DNA of 43,439 bases from Planctomycetaceae bacterium (GTDB lineage Bacteria > Planctomycetota > Planctomycetia > Pirellulales > UBA1268), in the NCBI GenBank assembly GCA_947449135.1, contig CANFQO010000019.1, forward strand, positions 1 through 43,439, in the 5' to 3' direction. The translations under genes and the position numbers were made by a program. Position 1 is the first letter of the stretch; each line of letters begins with the position of its first letter. Positions 32,548 through 43,379 of this stretch are shown piece by piece. A model generated the notes under the pieces. It was given only the letters and a program-made list of their open reading frames with translations, searched no databases and was not told the DNA's origin.

Positions 32548-35528
32548 CTGCAGCTCAACTCGTACCCGACTCCCTCGTTCTAGGAAGGCGAATCACCGGC
32601 AACGTGCCAGAGTTCGACCAGATCCGCCAACGACGGGAAGTCGAGGAGATCCTCCATCGGCTCGAGCGGCAGCCCGGCGTGATCCTGGCCGACGAAGTGG
32701 GGATGGGAAAGACGTTCGTGGCTCTCGCGATCGCCACGAGCATCGCGCTCCGTAATCCCGTAGGCCCCGTGATCGTCATGGCGCCCACCACACTCGTTCC
32801 GAAGTGGCAGCAGGACCTGAAGACTTTCTGCCAGCTCTACATGGACAGTCGCCGACCCGTGACTGTAGGAGAGGCTCCGCATCGCGAGCTTGTCGCCAGC
32901 GATGCGCTGCGGTTTGCGGCAGTCAAGGACGGCGCGGCTTTTCTCCGTCTGCTCGATGACCCGCGTCCGAGTCGTGCCCACCTGATCTTCGTCAGCCACG
33001 GGGCGATGTCGCGGCAACGAATGGACAAGTGGGTCAACCTGTGTCTCGTCGCGGAAGCGCTTCGTCGGCATGCCCGTGGCGGAAACGACGCTTTGATCCA
33101 GGTCAAGAAAGTGATCCACCGGTTTCTCGCCCAGTTGCTCTGGATGACCGGCAAGGAGAGTCGCCACGACCTGGGGGAAGATCTCTGGCAGCGACTCCTC
33201 CGATCATCACCGGCCGACTGGAGGGAAATCTACAACGGCGGTATCCGGAAAGACGAGCGCAAGCTCCCCGATGATCCGGTGCCCAAGGCCGTGCTTCGAT
33301 CGCTCGACGAGATTGACCTGCGGGAACTGGCCGAAGCCTTGAAGCACATGCCGATACGCGCCCGCGGCGGGGCGGAGCGGGTTGCCGAGCGCGTGGCGGC
33401 AGTCCGAGAGGAGCTGCGCAAGGTGGACCGCAGACTGTGGGGAGAGGTGCTGGCCAAGTCTCGGTGGCGCTCGCCCCTGCTCGTCATGGACGAGGCCCAC
33501 CACCTGAAGAACTCCGACACGCAATTGGCAAAGCAATTGCAGTCAGCGGAGTCTGTTGACGATCTGCAGACGGGCACCGGAGCAATGGCCCAGTCGTTTG
33601 ATCGCATGCTGTTCCTGACGGCCACGCCGTTCCAGCTTGGACACAAAGAACTCGTCCACGTACTCCAACGGTTTGGCGACGTCCGTTGGGATACTGCGGC
33701 CTTCGGTGACAAGGCGTCGTTCAAGGAGTCTCTCGCTGCGCTCAATCGATCGCTCGACGATAGCCAATACACCTCGATTGCCCTCCAGCGGGCATGGAGT
33801 CGGATGCGGCCCGAGGATCTGCCAGCCGCGACCGCCGAGCTCGAGGAATGGTGGCACGGCATCCAATCCGCTGATGTCGACACCCTGACGGTTCACCAGC
33901 GCGCATTTCGCGACGCCTACGAGGCGGCTCTGCAAAAACGCCGGGAGGCCAACAAGCGACTCCGCCCGCTGTTAGTGCGGCACAACAAGGGGGATTTCTG
34001 GCCCGGCTCGCCTATTCGGCGTCGACAGCGGGTAGAAGGCGCGGCCATCGGTGAACAGGGCGGATCCGTCGGAGTCGGCATCGACGTGCCGGCGGAGCAA
34101 CTCCTCCCGTTCTTCCTTGCGGCACGAGCGGCCGTGAATCCCCACAAAGACCTACTGGGCGATGCGCTTTGTTCGTCCTATGAGGCTTTTCGGCACACCC
34201 GTGAGCACAGGCAGCACCCCGCCGATGTGGATGGCTTGCACACACCGCACGAGGCCGAACGAAAGCACCGGCAGGAGGAGCTTGACTCACTGCTGAACGA
34301 CCACTGGTATCTGGCCGAGTTTGACGCCACGCTCGCGAAAACGTCCACGGCTATCCACCCCAAGATCGCCGCCACCGTTCAGCGCGCGGCCGACCTGTGG
34401 GAGCTGGGTGAGAAGGTCGTCGTTTTTGCTTTCTATCGCTACACGTGCCGGGCCCTGCGAAGGCACATCAGCAACGAGATCGAACGGCGGCTGCTCGATA
34501 AGTCCCTTGAGCGGCTCGGCATGCCGGCGTCAACACATGACCGCGAGGCCGTTGACGCCCGCCTCAAGCAAATACAGGATCGGTTTTTCGACGACACCGG
34601 TTCACCGGGTCAACTCGCGATGGATTCGGCACTCGCCTCCATCGTGGATCGCCATGCAGCTCTGATTGACGTGATGCCCTCTGCCGCGGAAACCCGCGCT
34701 GTTCTGATCACAGTCATGCGACGGTTTCTGCGGGTCCACACAACCCTAGTGCGATGCTTTCCGTTCGAGAAGGAAGGGCTTCTGGGGCCGGTGGATCTGG
34801 TCGCGCAATTTCTGGATCATGCCGATGCATCGGGTATGTCATGGCGGCAGAAGTTTGATGACTTCATCGAATTCGTCCTGTCCCGGTGTTCGGCCGAGGA
34901 AAGCACGCAGTACCTGACAGAACTCCAGCGGATCAGCACGGGGGCACACAAGGCCGGCGAAGCGGATCCTGGCGACCCAGCTGGGCACGATGATGAAGAT
35001 GGTACGACACTAGCCAACGTGGCACTGTGCAGCGGAGAGACACGGATGGAGGTTCGGGTACGCCGCATGCGCACCTTCAACACACCATTCTTTCCAGACG
35101 TACTTGTGTGCAGCGAGGTCATGGCTGAGGGCGTGGACCTCCAGCGATTCTGCCGGCATATGATCCATCACGACCTGGCCTGGAATCCAAGCACGATCGA
35201 GCAACGGACGGGCCGCATCGATCGGATCGGCTGTAAGGCGACAAACCGCCATCCGATTGTGACGTTCTTGCCGTATCTCAGCGGCGCTGCCGACGAGCGG
35301 CAATTTCGGGTGATGCGCGATCGGGAGCAGTGGTTCCAGGTGGTCATGGGCCAGGAGGCGGTCGCTGATCTCATAACCGCCGAAACGGTCGACTCTACGC
35401 CGCCGCTCCCTCAGTCACTCGTGGAGTCGCTTGCGTTTGATCTCTCTGTAGCCAAGGAATCGGGGTCGCACGCAACAACAGCTCGAAAACGTGACCGACA
35501 AAGTCCGACCATCGGTGACCCCCCATGA
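32544..35528 (+). CDS. Second SNF2-family helicase/ATPase
   Basis: A 994-residue protein. I prefer the ATG at 32544, which forms an ATGA overlap with the PLD stop as elsewhere in this cluster, over the in-frame ATG at 32535. Walker A is DEVGMGKT at 50-57, DEAH at 316-319 and motif VI EQRTGRIDRIG near 885, giving an SNF2/RapA-like engine. Between Walker A and DEAH there is an insertion of about 150 residues, and another helical insert follows at about 450-750. Sequence and domain lengths differ from the first SNF2 gene at 17356, so it is not a recent duplicate. It probably works with the PLD nuclease before it and the PLD-helicase after it. Confidence 0.85.
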   Translation: MTAAQLVPDSLVLGRRITGNVPEFDQIRQRREVEEILHRLERQPGVILADEVGMGKTFVALAIATSIALRNPVGPVIVMAPTTLVPKWQQDLKTFCQLYMDSRRPVTVGEAPHRELVASDALRFAAVKDGAAFLRLLDDPRPSRAHLIFVSHGAMSRQRMDKWVNLCLVAEALRRHARGGNDALIQVKKVIHRFLAQLLWMTGKESRHDLGEDLWQRLLRSSPADWREIYNGGIRKDERKLPDDPVPKAVLRSLDEIDLRELAEALKHMPIRARGGAERVAERVAAVREELRKVDRRLWGEVLAKSRWRSPLLVMDEAHHLKNSDTQLAKQLQSAESVDDLQTGTGAMAQSFDRMLFLTATPFQLGHKELVHVLQRFGDVRWDTAAFGDKASFKESLAALNRSLDDSQYTSIALQRAWSRMRPEDLPAATAELEEWWHGIQSADVDTLTVHQRAFRDAYEAALQKRREANKRLRPLLVRHNKGDFWPGSPIRRRQRVEGAAIGEQGGSVGVGIDVPAEQLLPFFLAARAAVNPHKDLLGDALCSSYEAFRHTREHRQHPADVDGLHTPHEAERKHRQEELDSLLNDHWYLAEFDATLAKTSTAIHPKIAATVQRAADLWELGEKVVVFAFYRYTCRALRRHISNEIERRLLDKSLERLGMPASTHDREAVDARLKQIQDRFFDDTGSPGQLAMDSALASIVDRHAALIDVMPSAAETRAVLITVMRRFLRVHTTLVRCFPFEKEGLLGPVDLVAQFLDHADASGMSWRQKFDDFIEFVLSRCSAEESTQYLTELQRISTGAHKAGEADPGDPAGHDDEDGTTLANVALCSGETRMEVRVRRMRTFNTPFFPDVLVCSEVMAEGVDLQRFCRHMIHHDLAWNPSTIEQRTGRIDRIGCKATNRHPIVTFLPYLSGAADERQFRVMRDREQWFQVVMGQEAVADLITAETVDSTPPLPQSLVESLAFDLSVAKESGSHATTARKRDRQSPTIGDPP

Positions 35529-38500
35529 CGCACCCTTCCCGCGGTATCTACGAGACGATCCTTACAGAAGCCCTCGACAAGGAACTTGCGACGCTCGCTG
35601 CAGATCTGCGTGAAAATCGTGAGAAACTGCGGCCAGCGGAGGCGGCGGACCGCCTTTCTCTTCATATCGCCAGGGTCGTCAGGCGGCTGATCGGGAAGGT
35701 GGATGAGAAGGATCGCGTAGCGATCGGCATCAAGCTCACGCGCAGTCTGATCAGCGGCATTGCAAAGGTCACTCAGCAGCGACTACCGAAATTATTCGAT
35801 GCCGCTGATTGTGCTGAACGTCCGGTAATTGATGGAGCACTCCTTCGTGCGATCGTGCAGGTACTCCCCGATGGGTCGACCGAAGAGATCCGTCCACCAA
35901 AAATCCCGCTACTCGACACGGCGATCCTCACAAACGCCCCGGGTGAGCCATCCGTGGGCAGCCAAGTGCACACCGAAATCCACTCTGCGGATTCCATCGA
36001 TCTCGTGATGGCATTCATCCGGTTTACAGGGATCGCCCCGCTGCTCGACGCTCTTCGACAGCACTTGCAGGCTGGTCGTAGTCTTCGGGTGCTCACCACG
36101 ACATACACCGGATCCACCGAACCCCGTGCGCTCGATGCCCTTCAGGCAGCTGGGGCAGATATCCGTGTGTCATACGACACCAGCACAACCCGTCTGCACG
36201 CGAAGAGCTGGCTCTTCCACCGGCGCAGCGGATTTTCAACCGCGTACATCGGGTCGTCGAACCTGACCCACTCCGCTCAGGTGACTGGTCTCGAGTGGAA
36301 TGTCCGAGTGTCAGGAGCGCGGAACCCTGACGTGATCGACAAGGTCGCCGCAGTGTTCGATAGCTATTGGAATAGCGGTACATTTCTTCCCTACAGACGA
36401 GAGGAGTTTCTGGAACAGACCGCGGCAGCGCGATCCGGCCCTTCGTTCGTCCTCAGTCCGCTCGAAATCCGCCTGGAGCCATTTCAGGAAGACCTCCTTG
36501 CAAAGATCGCTCTCTCACGATCCCAAGGTCATCACCGCAACCTATTGGCGGCGGCAACCGGCACCGGCAAGACCGTGATGGCTGCGGTCGACTACAGCAG
36601 ACTTGCGCCTGCACTCCCACGGGCCCGCCTGCTCTTTGTGGCTCATCGGGAGGAGATTCTCAAGCAGGCCCTCGGCACCTTTCGGCATGCCTTACGAGAG
36701 CCAACGTTTGGTGAACTGTGGGTGGGGGGATCGCGGCCGCAACGGTTTGAGCATGTGTTCGCGTCTATCCAGAGTCTGGACGCAGCGGGCCTTGCCCACC
36801 TGGCGAGCGATCACTTTGACATCGTCGTTGTTGATGAGTTTCACCACGCTGCCGCCCCTTCCTACACAAGGCTGCTGGATCATGTGAAACCACGGGAGCT
36901 TCTTGGGCTTACCGCCACACCTGAGCGGAGCGACGGCCTGCCAGTGCTGAGTTGGTTCGACGATCGCATCGCTGCTGAGCTACGGCTGTGGGATGCGATC
37001 GACCAGCACCGCCTGACGCCCTTTGTCTACTACGGCATCCACGACAATACAGACCTCCGCGACGTGCCCTGGCGTAGGGGAGCAGGATATGACGTGGAAC
37101 GCCTCACTGAGGTGCTCACCGCCAATGATGCTTACGCGCGTGTCGTCCTCCAGGAACTTGATCGCCGCACTGGTGACCCCACGCAGATCAGGGGGCTCGG
37201 ATTCTGCGTGAGCATCAATCACGCGAGATTCATGGCGCGGATTTTCAATGAGGCGGGGGTGAAGGCGACGGCTGTCTGGGCCGACACGCCTGATGCCGAA
37301 CGGGCAGCCGCCCTGCAAGACCTGAAGCAGAGGCGAACGAACGTCGTTTTCTCCGTGGATCTTTTCAATGAGGGCGTCGACGTTCCTGCCGTCGACACGG
37401 TTCTCTTTCTTCGACCTACTGACAGCGCTACTCTTTTTCTGCAGCAACTCGGCCGCGGCCTGCGTCGCCTCGACGGGAAGTCGGTCTGCACGGTGCTGGA
37501 CTTTGTCGGCCAGCACCGCAAGGAGTTTCGTTACGACCGACGGTTTCGGGCGCTCTTAGGCGGCACGCGCAAGGACCTTGAGCGGCAGATAAAAGAGGGG
37601 TTTCCCTTCCTGCCAGCGGGCTGCCACATGGAGCTCGACCGCGTTGCCAGCCAGATCGTGCTCGACAACGTCAAGCAGGCGGTGCCCGCAAAATGGACAG
37701 CCCGTGTCGAAGAATTGCGAGCCATGGCCGCCGGAGGCAAGGACGTCTCTCTAGCGACGTTTCTCGCTGAATCGGGTCTTGAGCCAGACGACATCTACGC
37801 CGGCAACCGATCGTGGACTGAATTACGGCAAGCGGCTGGTCTTTCTACAGCACCGGCGGGCCCAAAAGAGAAAACGCTGCTTCGTGGCTGTGGTCGAATG
37901 CTGCATGTCGACGACCTGCGGCGGATATGGGCATACCGCAAGGCTCTGCAGCAGTCTGACGTGAGTTACCTCACTACGCTGTCCGCTGGTGACCGTCGCC
38001 TGGTCCAAATGCTGGTGGCGGGTGTCGCTGACAAGGGCGTCGCCAAGCACGCCTCACTCACGGACGGCTTGGCACTCCTTCAGGCCCATGCCAATGTCCG
38101 GAATGAACTGCTAGCGATTCTGGACGTGCTGGAGAGCCGTATCAGCCACACAACGCAGCGTCTGCTAACCCACCCAGACGTGCCTCTTGAAATCCATGCA
38201 CGCTACTCGCGGTTAGAGATTCTGGCCGCATGTGGCCTTCGTGATGGTGCCAAAATGCCGCCTTGGCAGACAGGCGTGTATTGGGCCAAGCCTGCCGATG
38301 CCGATCTGCTTGCGTTCACACTCGACAAAACAAGCGGAGGTTTCTCACCAACGACTCGCTATCGAGATTACGCCGTAAGTCGCGACCTGATTCACTGGGA
38401 AAGCCAGTCGGCCACTCGTGCCGACAGCTCGACGGGGCTACGGTACCAACATCACGTGAATCAGGGCTCGTCGATCATGCTATTCGCGCGGCTGAACACC

Positions 38501-38638
38501 GACGATCGGGCCTTTTGGTTTCTGGGGCCGGCAACCTATGTGAAGCACGAGGGCGAGCAGCCCATGGCGATCACGTGGCAGCTTACGCATCCGTTGCCGG
38601 CGGACCTCTACACGACATTTGCTGCCGCAGTCGCGTGA
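35525..38638 (+). CDS. PLD-DEAD/DEAH helicase with DUF3427
   Basis: A 1037-residue protein, the last gene of the long cluster, joined to the SNF2 gene by ATGA at 35525-35528. It has three parts. A single PLD HKD-type motif (His225, Lys227, then GSSN 243-246) is followed by an SF2 helicase with ATGTGKT at 344-350, DEFHH at 437-441, TATPERSDG and QQLGRGLRRLDG. The C-terminal domain from about 900 to the end has the features of DUF3427 (FSPTTRYRDYAVSRDLIHWES, then FWFLGPATYVKHEG). This architecture is widespread as a stand-alone restriction-like protein, where the PLD part is taken to cut DNA and the C-terminal domain may recognise modification. Here it forms one unit with the upstream genes. 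Confidence 0.88.
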   Translation: MTHPSRGIYETILTEALDKELATLAADLRENREKLRPAEAADRLSLHIARVVRRLIGKVDEKDRVAIGIKLTRSLISGIAKVTQQRLPKLFDAADCAERPVIDGALLRAIVQVLPDGSTEEIRPPKIPLLDTAILTNAPGEPSVGSQVHTEIHSADSIDLVMAFIRFTGIAPLLDALRQHLQAGRSLRVLTTTYTGSTEPRALDALQAAGADIRVSYDTSTTRLHAKSWLFHRRSGFSTAYIGSSNLTHSAQVTGLEWNVRVSGARNPDVIDKVAAVFDSYWNSGTFLPYRREEFLEQTAAARSGPSFVLSPLEIRLEPFQEDLLAKIALSRSQGHHRNLLAAATGTGKTVMAAVDYSRLAPALPRARLLFVAHREEILKQALGTFRHALREPTFGELWVGGSRPQRFEHVFASIQSLDAAGLAHLASDHFDIVVVDEFHHAAAPSYTRLLDHVKPRELLGLTATPERSDGLPVLSWFDDRIAAELRLWDAIDQHRLTPFVYYGIHDNTDLRDVPWRRGAGYDVERLTEVLTANDAYARVVLQELDRRTGDPTQIRGLGFCVSINHARFMARIFNEAGVKATAVWADTPDAERAAALQDLKQRRTNVVFSVDLFNEGVDVPAVDTVLFLRPTDSATLFLQQLGRGLRRLDGKSVCTVLDFVGQHRKEFRYDRRFRALLGGTRKDLERQIKEGFPFLPAGCHMELDRVASQIVLDNVKQAVPAKWTARVEELRAMAAGGKDVSLATFLAESGLEPDDIYAGNRSWTELRQAAGLSTAPAGPKEKTLLRGCGRMLHVDDLRRIWAYRKALQQSDVSYLTTLSAGDRRLVQMLVAGVADKGVAKHASLTDGLALLQAHANVRNELLAILDVLESRISHTTQRLLTHPDVPLEIHARYSRLEILAACGLRDGAKMPPWQTGVYWAKPADADLLAFTLDKTSGGFSPTTRYRDYAVSRDLIHWESQSATRADSSTGLRYQHHVNQGSSIMLFARLNTDDRAFWFLGPATYVKHEGEQPMAITWQLTHPLPADLYTTFAAAVA

Positions 38639-40926: not shown

Positions 40927-40945
40927 CCACCCGGGAGTGTACGTC

Positions 40946-41608
40946 GTGGCAGGCAAGAAAGAAGCCGAGCACGCAGAACTACCCGCCGCGATGCGCGAGA
41001 GCATCGAGGCGCTCCTGCAGAAGATCTTCAGCGAGACGGCGAAGCGGGAGCTGTGGGCGAACCGGTTCACCACGACTGATCGCCTCAAGTTCTCAGGCGG
41101 CGACGCGGCGCTGCGGAAGCACAACATCATCGAGCTGTGGCACATCGCTCGCGGCACTGCCACGTGGAATGAGTGTATCGTCGAGGTTGCACATGCTCTT
41201 GGCTTCATCAACGACGCTCGGCGTGCATCGCTGCTCGAGGCCCTGGGGGCAATGCCATCGAAGGCGAAGGGTGGCAGGCGGCCGTCTGCCGTGCCGCACT
41301 GGGATGAGGATGCCAGGGAACTCCGCTACCTAGGCCAAGTGGTTCGCGTCGTGAAGAAGCCGAAGCAGGCTCACAATATTGTCGGGATCTTGCGAGCCTT
41401 TGAGGAGGCAGGGTGGCCACGCCGAATCGATGATCCACACCGCCGTAAGCCGAGCGACCAGACGCGGCGGCGGGATGTGGAGAACCTCAACAAGCGACTG
41501 CTGAAACCGCTGCTGAAGTTCGAGTGCGATGGCAACGGCACCGGGTTTCTCTGGAAGAAGATCGCCCAGCCAACGGTAAAAAAGACTGCAAAACGCTCGC
41601 GGCGATAG
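40946..41608 (+). CDS. Winged-helix-like DNA-binding protein
   Basis: A 220-residue protein. The GTG at 40946 is preferred, with GGGAG at 40933-40937, 8 bases away; an upstream GTG overlaps that site. Residues about 115-210 (LRYLGQVVRVVKKPKQA, ILRAFEEAGWPRRIDDP, then DVENLNKRLLKPLLKFECDGNGTGFLW) match a winged-helix pattern I associate with planctomycete proteins. The helix-loop-helix is followed by a beta wing containing the DGxGTG turn. The first about 90 residues are helical and may dimerise, and the tail is basic. It is probably the regulator nearest to the recombination genes, and the inverted repeats just downstream are obvious candidate sites. DNA binding is inferred. Confidence 0.6.
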   Translation: MAGKKEAEHAELPAAMRESIEALLQKIFSETAKRELWANRFTTTDRLKFSGGDAALRKHNIIELWHIARGTATWNECIVEVAHALGFINDARRASLLEALGAMPSKAKGGRRPSAVPHWDEDARELRYLGQVVRVVKKPKQAHNIVGILRAFEEAGWPRRIDDPHRRKPSDQTRRRDVENLNKRLLKPLLKFECDGNGTGFLWKKIAQPTVKKTAKRSRR

Positions 41609-41650
41609 CAGGCTGGCTCGAGCGCCCTTCTATGGTGGTGCCGCCCCGAG

Positions 41651-41671
41651 CACGGGCGCTGCACGGGCGCT
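41651..41671. repeat. Phased direct repeat CACGGGCGCT
   Basis: Two identical 10-base units at 41651-41660 and 41662-41671, spaced 11 bases start to start, about one helical turn. Phased repeats of this kind upstream of an excisionase gene are typical of cooperative protein-binding sites. They open the structured region before the excisionase gene. Confidence 0.5.
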
Positions 41672-41689
41672 CCTGTGATTCGTCTGAAG

Positions 41690-41772
41690 GATCGATTATT
41701 CGATCATTGAATCCAGCGTCGAGGCTCGCAATGGATGCGAGCCCGATGCATCGGGCGGGCCCCGCAGGCCCG
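41690..41772. promoter_or_regulatory. Cluster of inverted repeats upstream of excisionase gene
   Basis: Four inverted repeats in 83 bases. GATCGA/TCGATC with a 4-base loop lies at 41690-41705. GGCTCGCA/TGCGAGCC with a 5-base loop lies at 41723-41743. A 16-base perfect palindrome GCCCGATGCATCGGGC lies at 41741-41756, and CGGGCC/GGCCCG with a 5-base loop at 41756-41772. The last three abut end to end, and the final stem closes 11 bases before the excisionase ATG. The region could be a regulatory or recombination site bound by the Xis-like or winged-helix protein, or a folded leader RNA. A terminator is less likely because no T-tract follows. Confidence 0.6.
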
Positions 41773-41783
41773 GTTGGTGCCGC

Positions 41784-42017
41784 ATGGATTCAAAGACTTT
41801 CTTCAAGGACGGTGCCGGCGACGCCGGCGAGCCGATCGGGCTGCGGCCTGCGGAGGCCGCGGCCAGGCTCGGCGTCAGCATTACCACGCTCTATCGCCTC
41901 CGCGTGGCGGGCCGGATTCCGTTCGTGAAGCTCGACGGAGCGGTCATCTACCGCGTCGCCAGTCTCGACCAGTTCCTGCGCGACTCTGAGCAGCAGGGCA
42001 AACAAGACACCGCCTGA
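41784..42017 (+). CDS. Excisionase-like MerR-type helix-turn-helix protein
   Basis: A 77-residue protein. Residues 18-66 (LRPAEAAARLGVSITTLYRL, then GRIPFVKLDGAVIYRVASLDQFLRDS) form the winged helix-turn-helix of the excisionase/AlpA-type MerR family. These proteins bind near attachment sites and direct the integrase towards excision, or act as small repressors. No clear ribosome site precedes the ATG. It lies 55 bases upstream of the integrase gene, in the usual xis-int order. The stop codon is inside a strong hairpin. Confidence 0.8.
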   Translation: MDSKTFFKDGAGDAGEPIGLRPAEAAARLGVSITTLYRLRVAGRIPFVKLDGAVIYRVASLDQFLRDSEQQGKQDTA

Positions 42018-42039
42018 GCCCACGATGGGCTCAGGCGGA
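42011..42039 (+). terminator. Perfect 13-bp hairpin at the end of the excisionase gene
   Basis: CCGCCTGAGCCCA (42011-42023) pairs with TGGGCTCAGGCGG (42027-42039) around a CGA loop, containing the excisionase stop at 42015-42017. Only a short T stretch (AGGTTTCT) follows. It could terminate or attenuate transcription between the excisionase and integrase genes, lowering integrase expression relative to the excisionase. Confidence 0.7.
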
Positions 42040-42072: not shown

Positions 42073-43344
42073 ATGGCATCGTTATGTTCTGATTCAGGAA
42101 AGCGGGGTGAGACCTATCGGGTCATCAGCCGCTCAAAAAATGGTAAGCGTCACACCATCCGCCTCGGCCGGGTCAACAAGAGGATCGCGGAGACGGCAAG
42201 GTTGATGATCGAGTCGCTCGAGGCGGCGAAGGCGACCGGCCATTCGCCCGACCGCGAGACGGCTGAATGGGTCGGTCGCCTAGGGGACGAGATTCATCGC
42301 CGGCTCGCCAGGGCCGGGCTCGTGTCGCCACGAGAGCCGGCCCAGCCGGCGATCGTCACCCTTGGCCAGCATCTCGAGCAGTTTTTCGGCAGCCTCGGCA
42401 AGCAGAAGCCGACGACGGCCCGTAACTACGCGCGGGCGCGGCGGCTGCTCGAGGAGTTTTTCGGCAAGAATCGGACGCTCGTCTCGATCACCGAGGGCGA
42501 CGCCGACGGCTACAAGCGGTGGCTCCTGGCCAGCTACGCCCCGGCGTCGGCATCAGTCGACCTGCGACGCGCCAGGCAATTCCTCAAGGCCGCCGTCCGC
42601 CGGCGGCTGATCGCCGTCAATCCGTTCGCCGACGTGCCGTGTGGCCCCCAGGTCAACGACGACCGCATCTACTATGTTTCCGTCGAGGACATCGAGCGGG
42701 TCATCGCGGCCTGCCCGGATGAGGACTGGCGCATGATCTTCGCCATGCCGCGGTTCGGCGGCATCCGGTTTCCCAGCGAGGCCGAGGCATTGAAGTGGGA
42801 GGACGTGGACTGGGCGAACTCACGGTTCACCGTCCACGAGAAGAAGGTTGAGCACCATCCCGGCCGAGGCCGGCGGGTCGTGCCCATCTTCGAGGCGCTG
42901 CGGCCCCATCTGGAGCGGGCCTACCGCGAGCGGGCCCCGGGCGCTGTCTACGTGGTGCCGCGGGCCCGTGGCGGTCAGAACCTCGGCACCCAGGCCAAGC
43001 GGATCATCGAGAAGGCGGGGGTGAAGCCGTGGCCAAAACTCTTCGTCAACATGCGCGGCAGCTGCTCCGACGATCTCGAGCGTCGAGCCATTCCGGAAAA
43101 GGCGATCAACGCCTGGATTGGAAACACCGCTCGCATGCGGCAGCGGCACTACCACTCGGTGCGGCCGGAGGACTGGGCGGCGGTCACCGGAAAAGCGGCG
43201 CAAATTCCGGCGCGCCCAGCGTCGTTCAGGAGTGTTCAGGAGCCGTCAGCCCTTCACGAATCCCGCGAAAAATCGCTAGACGTCGTGAAGGACGCGGAAA
43301 ATCAGTACCCCCGGCAGGGATCGAACCTGCGACCTGAGCTTTAG
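42073..43344 (+). CDS. Tyrosine recombinase (integrase) of planctomycete type
   Basis: A 423-residue protein from the ATG at 42073 with AAGGAG at 42060-42065. Residues 13-55 form an N-terminal arm-binding part and about 95-185 a SAM-like core-binding domain. The catalytic domain shows Arg232 in GGIRFPSEAEALKW, Lys257/258, Arg328 in FVNMRGS, and the nucleophile Tyr360 in RHYHSV. The histidine usual before the second Arg is Val325, and the later His/Trp position is Asn351 (WIGNT), as in a divergent group I associate with planctomycetes. It integrates the element by strand exchange at the tRNA. The last residues (YPRQGSNLRPEL) are encoded antisense within the tRNA gene, as happens when the attachment site lies in the integrase end. 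Confidence 0.85.
   Translation: MASLCSDSGKRGETYRVISRSKNGKRHTIRLGRVNKRIAETARLMIESLEAAKATGHSPDRETAEWVGRLGDEIHRRLARAGLVSPREPAQPAIVTLGQHLEQFFGSLGKQKPTTARNYARARRLLEEFFGKNRTLVSITEGDADGYKRWLLASYAPASASVDLRRARQFLKAAVRRRLIAVNPFADVPCGPQVNDDRIYYVSVEDIERVIAACPDEDWRMIFAMPRFGGIRFPSEAEALKWEDVDWANSRFTVHEKKVEHHPGRGRRVVPIFEALRPHLERAYRERAPGAVYVVPRARGGQNLGTQAKRIIEKAGVKPWPKLFVNMRGSCSDDLERRAIPEKAINAWIGNTARMRQRHYHSVRPEDWAAVTGKAAQIPARPASFRSVQEPSALHESREKSLDVVKDAENQYPRQGSNLRPEL
43306..43344. other. Probable attachment site (attL or attR) in tRNA-Arg 3' part
   Basis: The 3' half of the minus-strand tRNA gene, from the discriminator base to near the anticodon stem, overlaps the integrase 3' end. Elements of this type usually insert here and restore the tRNA sequence. 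The island therefore should extend leftward from this point. I did not find a second copy within the window by reading it, so the partner site is probably left of position 1. Confidence 0.55.
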
Positions 43345-43379
43345 GAAAGCTCCGCTCTATCCAACTGAGCTACGGGAGC
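43306..43379 (-). tRNA. tRNA-Arg (anticodon CCT)
   Basis: A full cloverleaf on the minus strand, 74 bases. The acceptor GCTCCCG pairs with CGGGGGT (one G-T pair), and the D arm contains AGCTCAGTTGG. The anticodon stem is GAGCT/AGCTC with loop TTCCTAA (anticodon CCT), and the T arm is GCAGG TTCGATC CCTGC. The discriminator base is A and CCA is not encoded. The anticodon reads AGG, a rare Arg codon in GC-rich genomes. It is the insertion target of the neighbouring integrase. Confidence 0.93.

Follow-up and report, generated by a model that had tools for sequence, protein, structure and literature searches.

A tandem 11-bp repeat and a pairing-conserved leader as a candidate control region of a planctomycete excisionase-integrase operon

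Introduction

What does a dense array of direct and inverted repeats do directly in front of an excisionase gene? The question is raised by a window of 43,439 nt (the whole stretch of DNA analysed here, contig C19 of a 3.69 Mb planctomycete assembly), in which such an array lies between an uncharacterised gene and an excisionase-integrase gene pair. A sequence-only reading of the window had concluded that the repeat density is not explained by a terminator, and had suggested a control or recombination site or a folded RNA leader. Structured leaders of integrase/excisionase genes, such as int-alpA, are represented in Rfam. In proteobacterial ICEs, FseA (DUF2285) activates rdfS (PMC10359603). 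We found no description in the open literature of how excision is decided in planctomycete integrative elements.

Results

The repeat region lies in a + strand module that ends in a tRNA gene. The gene for a 223-aa uncharacterised protein with a C-terminal winged-helix-like domain (40937..41608; hereafter the regulator gene, the proposed reader of the direct repeat) is followed by the repeat and hairpin region, a gene for a 77-aa excisionase-like HTH_17 protein (41784..42017; Pfam HTH_17 E 4e-11) and a gene for a 423-aa tyrosine integrase (42073..43344). The integrase gene overlaps tRNA-Arg(cct) (43305-43379) with its 3′ end, and the C-terminus of the protein (PRQGSNLRP) reads through the 3′ end of the tRNA gene. 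The excisionase-like protein scored 28 bits against TIGR01764 (excisionase), slightly below the cut-off of 28.8. For the integrase, Phage_int_SAM_5 was above cut-off and Phage_integrase slightly below. A second copy of the tRNA-Arg stretch on contig C71 was considered as an att duplicate and rejected, as it is a 149-base overlap of contig ends; no further copy of this stretch is present in the source genome, and the left att site was not found.

Searches of Pfam, NCBIfam and PDB gave no match for the 223-aa protein. The protein is present in 15 copies in 12 of the 72 genomes of the family, and across the order 93 of 396 genomes contain its C-terminal domain; among viral contigs, neither the integrase nor the regulator had a relative. 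From the sequence pattern and an AF2 model of low confidence (bbb-H-H-bb, pLDDT 60; pLDDT 50 for the whole regulator), we infer that the C-terminal domain is a winged helix. Trans_reg_C gave no Pfam match in the regulator up to E = 5, and profile comparison with planctomycete Trans_reg_C domains gave an hhalign probability of 1.4%. Neither a receiver domain nor a DUF2285 match was found in the protein. In the regulator copies of the family that were examined downstream, an intergenic stretch leads to an HTH excisionase-like gene and then, on contigs that extend far enough, to an integrase.

The dense repeats reported in front of the excisionase gene proved real. The 11-bp unit GCACGGGCGCT occurs exactly at 41650-41660 and again at 41661-41671, with a start-to-start distance of 11, forming a tandem direct repeat (41650..41671) that is a candidate operator. 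A search of the 3.69 Mb genome with its degenerate form RYGGGCGCNNNRYGGGCGC gave a single occurrence, at this site; the reversed-pattern control also gave one. A row of inverted repeats follows: 41687-41695/41700-41708, GGCTCGCA/TGCGAGCC at 41723-41730/41736-41743, GCCCGATG/CATCGGGC at 41741-41748/41749-41756, and a GC hairpin with arms at 41756-41760/41768-41772. The third of these is a perfect palindrome (GCCCGATGCATCGGGC, 41741..41756). The last three (41723-41772) abut or overlap, and consecutive hairpins run up to the excisionase start at 41784. We found no intrinsic terminator (GC stem and T-run) on the + strand within this region of the window.

Folded as RNA, 41641-41775 reached -69.1 kcal/mol, compared with -54.7 for dinucleotide shuffles (z -3.63, with 0 of 200 shuffles as good). 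The z-scores were -3.30 for 41609-41783 and -3.68 for 41666-41783. The corresponding regions of relatives folded less extremely than the window, at z -1.1 to -2.2, that is, moderately better than shuffles. The case for function therefore rests on conserved pairing, not on energy.

We were able to find integrases 55-85% identical in related genomes, and the DNA of the region was matched in a few of these. The leader alignment comprises eight loci (the window, L005, L007, L008, L009, L010, L011 and L012), four of which are closely alike. L003, L004 and L006 were left out because their contigs end inside the xis gene; such breaks affect 3 of 11 integrase relatives, and strong hairpins or repeats may disturb assembly there. 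The eight loci share a common anatomy of GGGCGC-like units (11 or 12 bp), two hairpins, a Shine-Dalgarno sequence (AGGTG or GGTG) and ATG. The tandem repeat is kept in two to three copies at 11 or 12 bp spacing, with a degenerate first unit in L005, and the last unit starts 119-121 bases before the ATG in six of the eight.

Downstream of the repeat we distinguish a P1 block, GTGATTC-N27-GAATCCA (41675..41715), and the hairpins P2 and P3. In P2 (41716..41749), 13 pairs close a 7-nt loop, and the A at 41722 is bulged. P3 (41748..41780) has an outer helix, GCATC/GGTGC, which pairs 41748-41752 with 41776-41780 over the Shine-Dalgarno region, and encloses the inner GC hairpin (41756-41772). The palindrome, found in the closest relatives only, might let arms of P2 and P3 pair with each other instead. 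A long-range pair absent from the list of the sequence-only reading joins TCATTGAATCCA (41704-41715) with TGGATTCAAAGA (41785-41796) across the start codon and would compete with P1. This potential pairing, of TTGAATCCA with the start-codon region TGGATTCAA, is retained in the closest relatives only.

Comparison across the eight relatives, proposed earlier as a way of separating conserved pairing from conserved sequence, showed that the hairpins keep their pairing and not their sequence. In P2, the outer P3 helix and the inner P3 hairpin, 94.0% of pair cells were kept, compared with 30-43% with slid partners; the structure was derived from the same eight sequences, which favours the true register and G·U pairs. 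The outer P3 helix had 95% of cells paired and one two-sided change, and the inner P3 hairpin 90%. The covariation score was 0.342 versus 0.240 for shuffled alignments, with 0 of 500 shuffles as high. Four pairs were changed on both sides, a number not above shuffles (117 of 500 reach 4); columns 13/40 of the alignment, for instance, show a change from A-U to U-A, and columns 19/35 one from C-G to U-A.

The inverted repeats might instead act in double-stranded DNA, as dyads recognised by one regulator or several, with no function as an RNA leader. The perfect palindrome, the presence of several dyads and the closeness of the hairpins to the direct repeat all fit such an arrangement. However, 28 G·U cells were counted against 3 A·C cells in the leader pairing, an asymmetry expected if the RNA is transcribed from the + strand; in a DNA dyad, both kinds of cell would be tolerated equally. 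The argument is partly circular, since a structure chosen with RNA rules favours G·U. The stem with a 6-7-nt loop is also retained, and the palindrome is missing in L010-L012. We therefore consider DNA dyads rather unlikely, and favour a leader that folds as RNA.

In Rfam, the region matched no family at the gathering cut-off, which distinguishes it from int-alpA-type leaders, with which it shares conserved RNA structure before xis/int genes. Matches up to E = 10 were at chance level apart from the tRNA, and none of these weak matches was a structured integrase/excisionase leader. A covariance model (R1) run on 396 genomes of the order recovered the eight known loci and four weak matches; the latter were rejected, as they lie inside other genes and lack xis/int context. 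A conserved leader peptide was rejected, as the reading frames differ among relatives.

The direct repeat was examined on a wider scale downstream of the stop codon in 87 regulator-family loci across the order, 60 of them added later, with dinucleotide shuffles as the reference. In the first 200 nt behind the stop codon, 9 of the 87 loci reached 12 or more of 14 matches at lag 11 (shuffled mean 0.05, maximum 1). By the same threshold, lag 22 was seen in 3 loci and other lags in 0-1, and no locus qualified at lag 11 either 300-500 nt further down or inside the regulator gene. At p<=0.05, 21 loci qualified at lag 11, 10 at lag 22 and 0-5 at other lags, with 3-4 loci at lag 11 in the two control regions. 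Most of the 87 loci lack a clear repeat. The 11-bp rule is therefore not universal and may apply to only part of the family, whose members may be heterogeneous or use diverged sites.

Three groups of repeats were recognised behind the family copies examined downstream. The window group has ACGGGCGC units, two to three in number at 11-12 bp. ACGGGCGC units also occur in L039-L041 before a different integrase, and L060 has one unit; GGCGCACCGGT units are found in L064, L065, L066 and L069. The strongest repeats across the order were those of L138, a row of six GCTTCCCATCM units, L091 (TGACCGTCGAG twice), L107, L096, L132 and L146. In L138, L096, L107 and L146, the repeats stand behind the regulator gene though no excisionase or integrase is seen downstream, indicating that the repeat belongs to the regulator gene. 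Seventeen integrase homologues without a regulator had no strong repeat (best 7-10 of 14), among them L021, which has an HTH_17-like gene and an integrase. The direct repeat is thus associated with the regulator gene, and not with the excisionase or the integrase.

These results bear on whether the repeat could be the excisionase's own binding site, serving autoregulation, excision as an arm site, or both, in the manner of wHTH directionality factors that bind near attP and at their own promoter. The repeat does lie upstream of the xis gene, and RdfS binds attP as well as its own promoter (PMC11963761). Against this stand the similar 11-bp repeats behind regulator genes in loci with no visible xis or int. 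The window locus and L041 have 21 of 22 repeat bases in common with regulator domains 58% identical, but their excisionases are merely 30% identical. No second repeat pair is present in the window near the int/tRNA end. An excisionase site is improbable on this evidence; the most economical reading of the sequences makes the repeats a tandem binding site of the regulator itself.

Two direct repeats ~11 bp apart, as present here, are what is expected of an OmpR/PhoB-type operator. An arm-type att site would lie beside the attachment core, and the presumed core, the tRNA-Arg at the integrase end, is ~1.6 kb off. A recombination arm site is accordingly unlikely, as is a terminator. Of the earlier interpretation, the control site is supported, with the 11-bp repeat as candidate operator, and so is the folded RNA leader, represented by the hairpins; the recombination site is not, since the same kind of repeat accompanies homologous regulators with no recombinase downstream. 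Excisionase/integrase relatives lacking the repeats, named earlier as the refuting case, do exist, L021 among them. They also lack the regulator gene, so that their existence refutes a tie to recombination but not one to control.

A different module was also compared. In L064, L065, L066 and L069, a block GTGATTC-N27/28-GRRTCCA as in the window lies at a similar distance behind the repeat, so that P1 has matching ends and the same length in modules with two different integrases. On its own, the P1 block gives a weak fold, and it may equally be a weak hairpin or a promoter element. In L064, L065 and L069, the bases directly after TCCA form a hairpin whose sequence is unrelated (z -3.5, -4.4 and -2.2, respectively). 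An unrelated hairpin at the same place means that pairing, not sequence, is kept there as well.

In L065 and L069, this P2-equivalent hairpin is followed by CACTTTTCC, and L039-L041 have a terminator-like hairpin between the regulator gene and the repeat, as would be expected if the hairpins were an attenuator or terminator before xis-int. Such a role is highly doubtful for the window, which has no + strand terminator in the region; among the eight close relatives, moreover, neither P2 nor P3 has a T-run behind it. Chance structure without function is very improbable, despite the GC-richness of the region and the moderate folding z-scores of the relatives, given the slide and shuffle controls on pairing and the order-wide excess at lag 11.

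Discussion

On balance, we think it somewhat more likely than not from these sequence comparisons that an operator for the adjacent regulator and a structured 5′ leader limiting excisionase translation together form the control region of the xis-int operon in a tRNA-Arg-associated element. The winged-helix-like regulator would occupy both 11-bp repeats, next to one another on the same face of the helix. Bound there, it would set xis-int transcription, by activation or repression, from a putative promoter just behind the repeat. The predicted transcript would carry a leader of the consecutive hairpins P1, P2 and P3, in which pairing of the outer P3 helix with the Shine-Dalgarno region would keep excisionase synthesis poor unless the leader is opened. 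Excision would then require both signals, regulator-set transcription and an opened leader.

OmpR/PhoB-type tandem operators, such as the pho box, are 11-bp direct repeats whose two units adjoin at a distance of one helical turn. The side-by-side 11-bp units described here resemble them, and the strand-helix-helix-strand hairpin order in the low-confidence model is reminiscent of that family; however, by Pfam and by profile comparison the present protein is not a Trans_reg_C protein, and no receiver domain was found in it. The nearest described logic appears, by analogy, to be that of FseA acting upstream of rdfS (PMC10359603; PMC11963761). Both cases have an element-encoded divergent DNA-binding protein, acting (here, by prediction) just upstream of the directionality-factor promoter, in a tRNA-inserted element (PMC10359603). 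In contrast to the 11-bp direct repeats here, the FseA site is two inverted hexamers ~15-16 bp apart (PMC10359603), and in our case no frameshift fusion was seen and DUF2285 gave no match. RdfS resembles the present system in that a tRNA-integrated element has a small wHTH excisionase gene under control at its own promoter; it differs in that the repeat here tracks another protein family, not the excisionase, and the passages on RdfS consulted mention no RNA leader (PMC11963761).

The locus thus provides a concrete candidate regulator-operator pair for excision control in a planctomycete element. Evenly balanced, in our judgement, is the broader proposal of a planctomycete-wide, unnamed DNA-binding family with its own 11-bp tandem operator behind the stop codon, diverging in sequence together with the protein; mobile elements would have recruited it for excision control, some adding a pairing-conserved leader over the excisionase start. 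A rule of this kind could assign sites to many uncharacterised planctomycete regulators, some of them before surface-protein-like genes. In L138, L096 and L135, regulator-family genes with tandem 11-bp repeats lie before large secreted-protein-like genes with a start motif like LEPRLLLS.

Two further features of the window were noted. Upstream of the module, 35525-38638 encodes a 1037-aa protein with PLDc, DEAD/ResIII helicase and DUF3427 domains, possibly a defence gene. At 42003-42038, a 13-pair GC-rich inverted repeat, terminator-like on the - strand, covers the stop codon of xis together with the gap between xis and int, and may set the Xis:Int ratio. Several relatives retain it, and L007 has a hairpin of other sequence at the same place.
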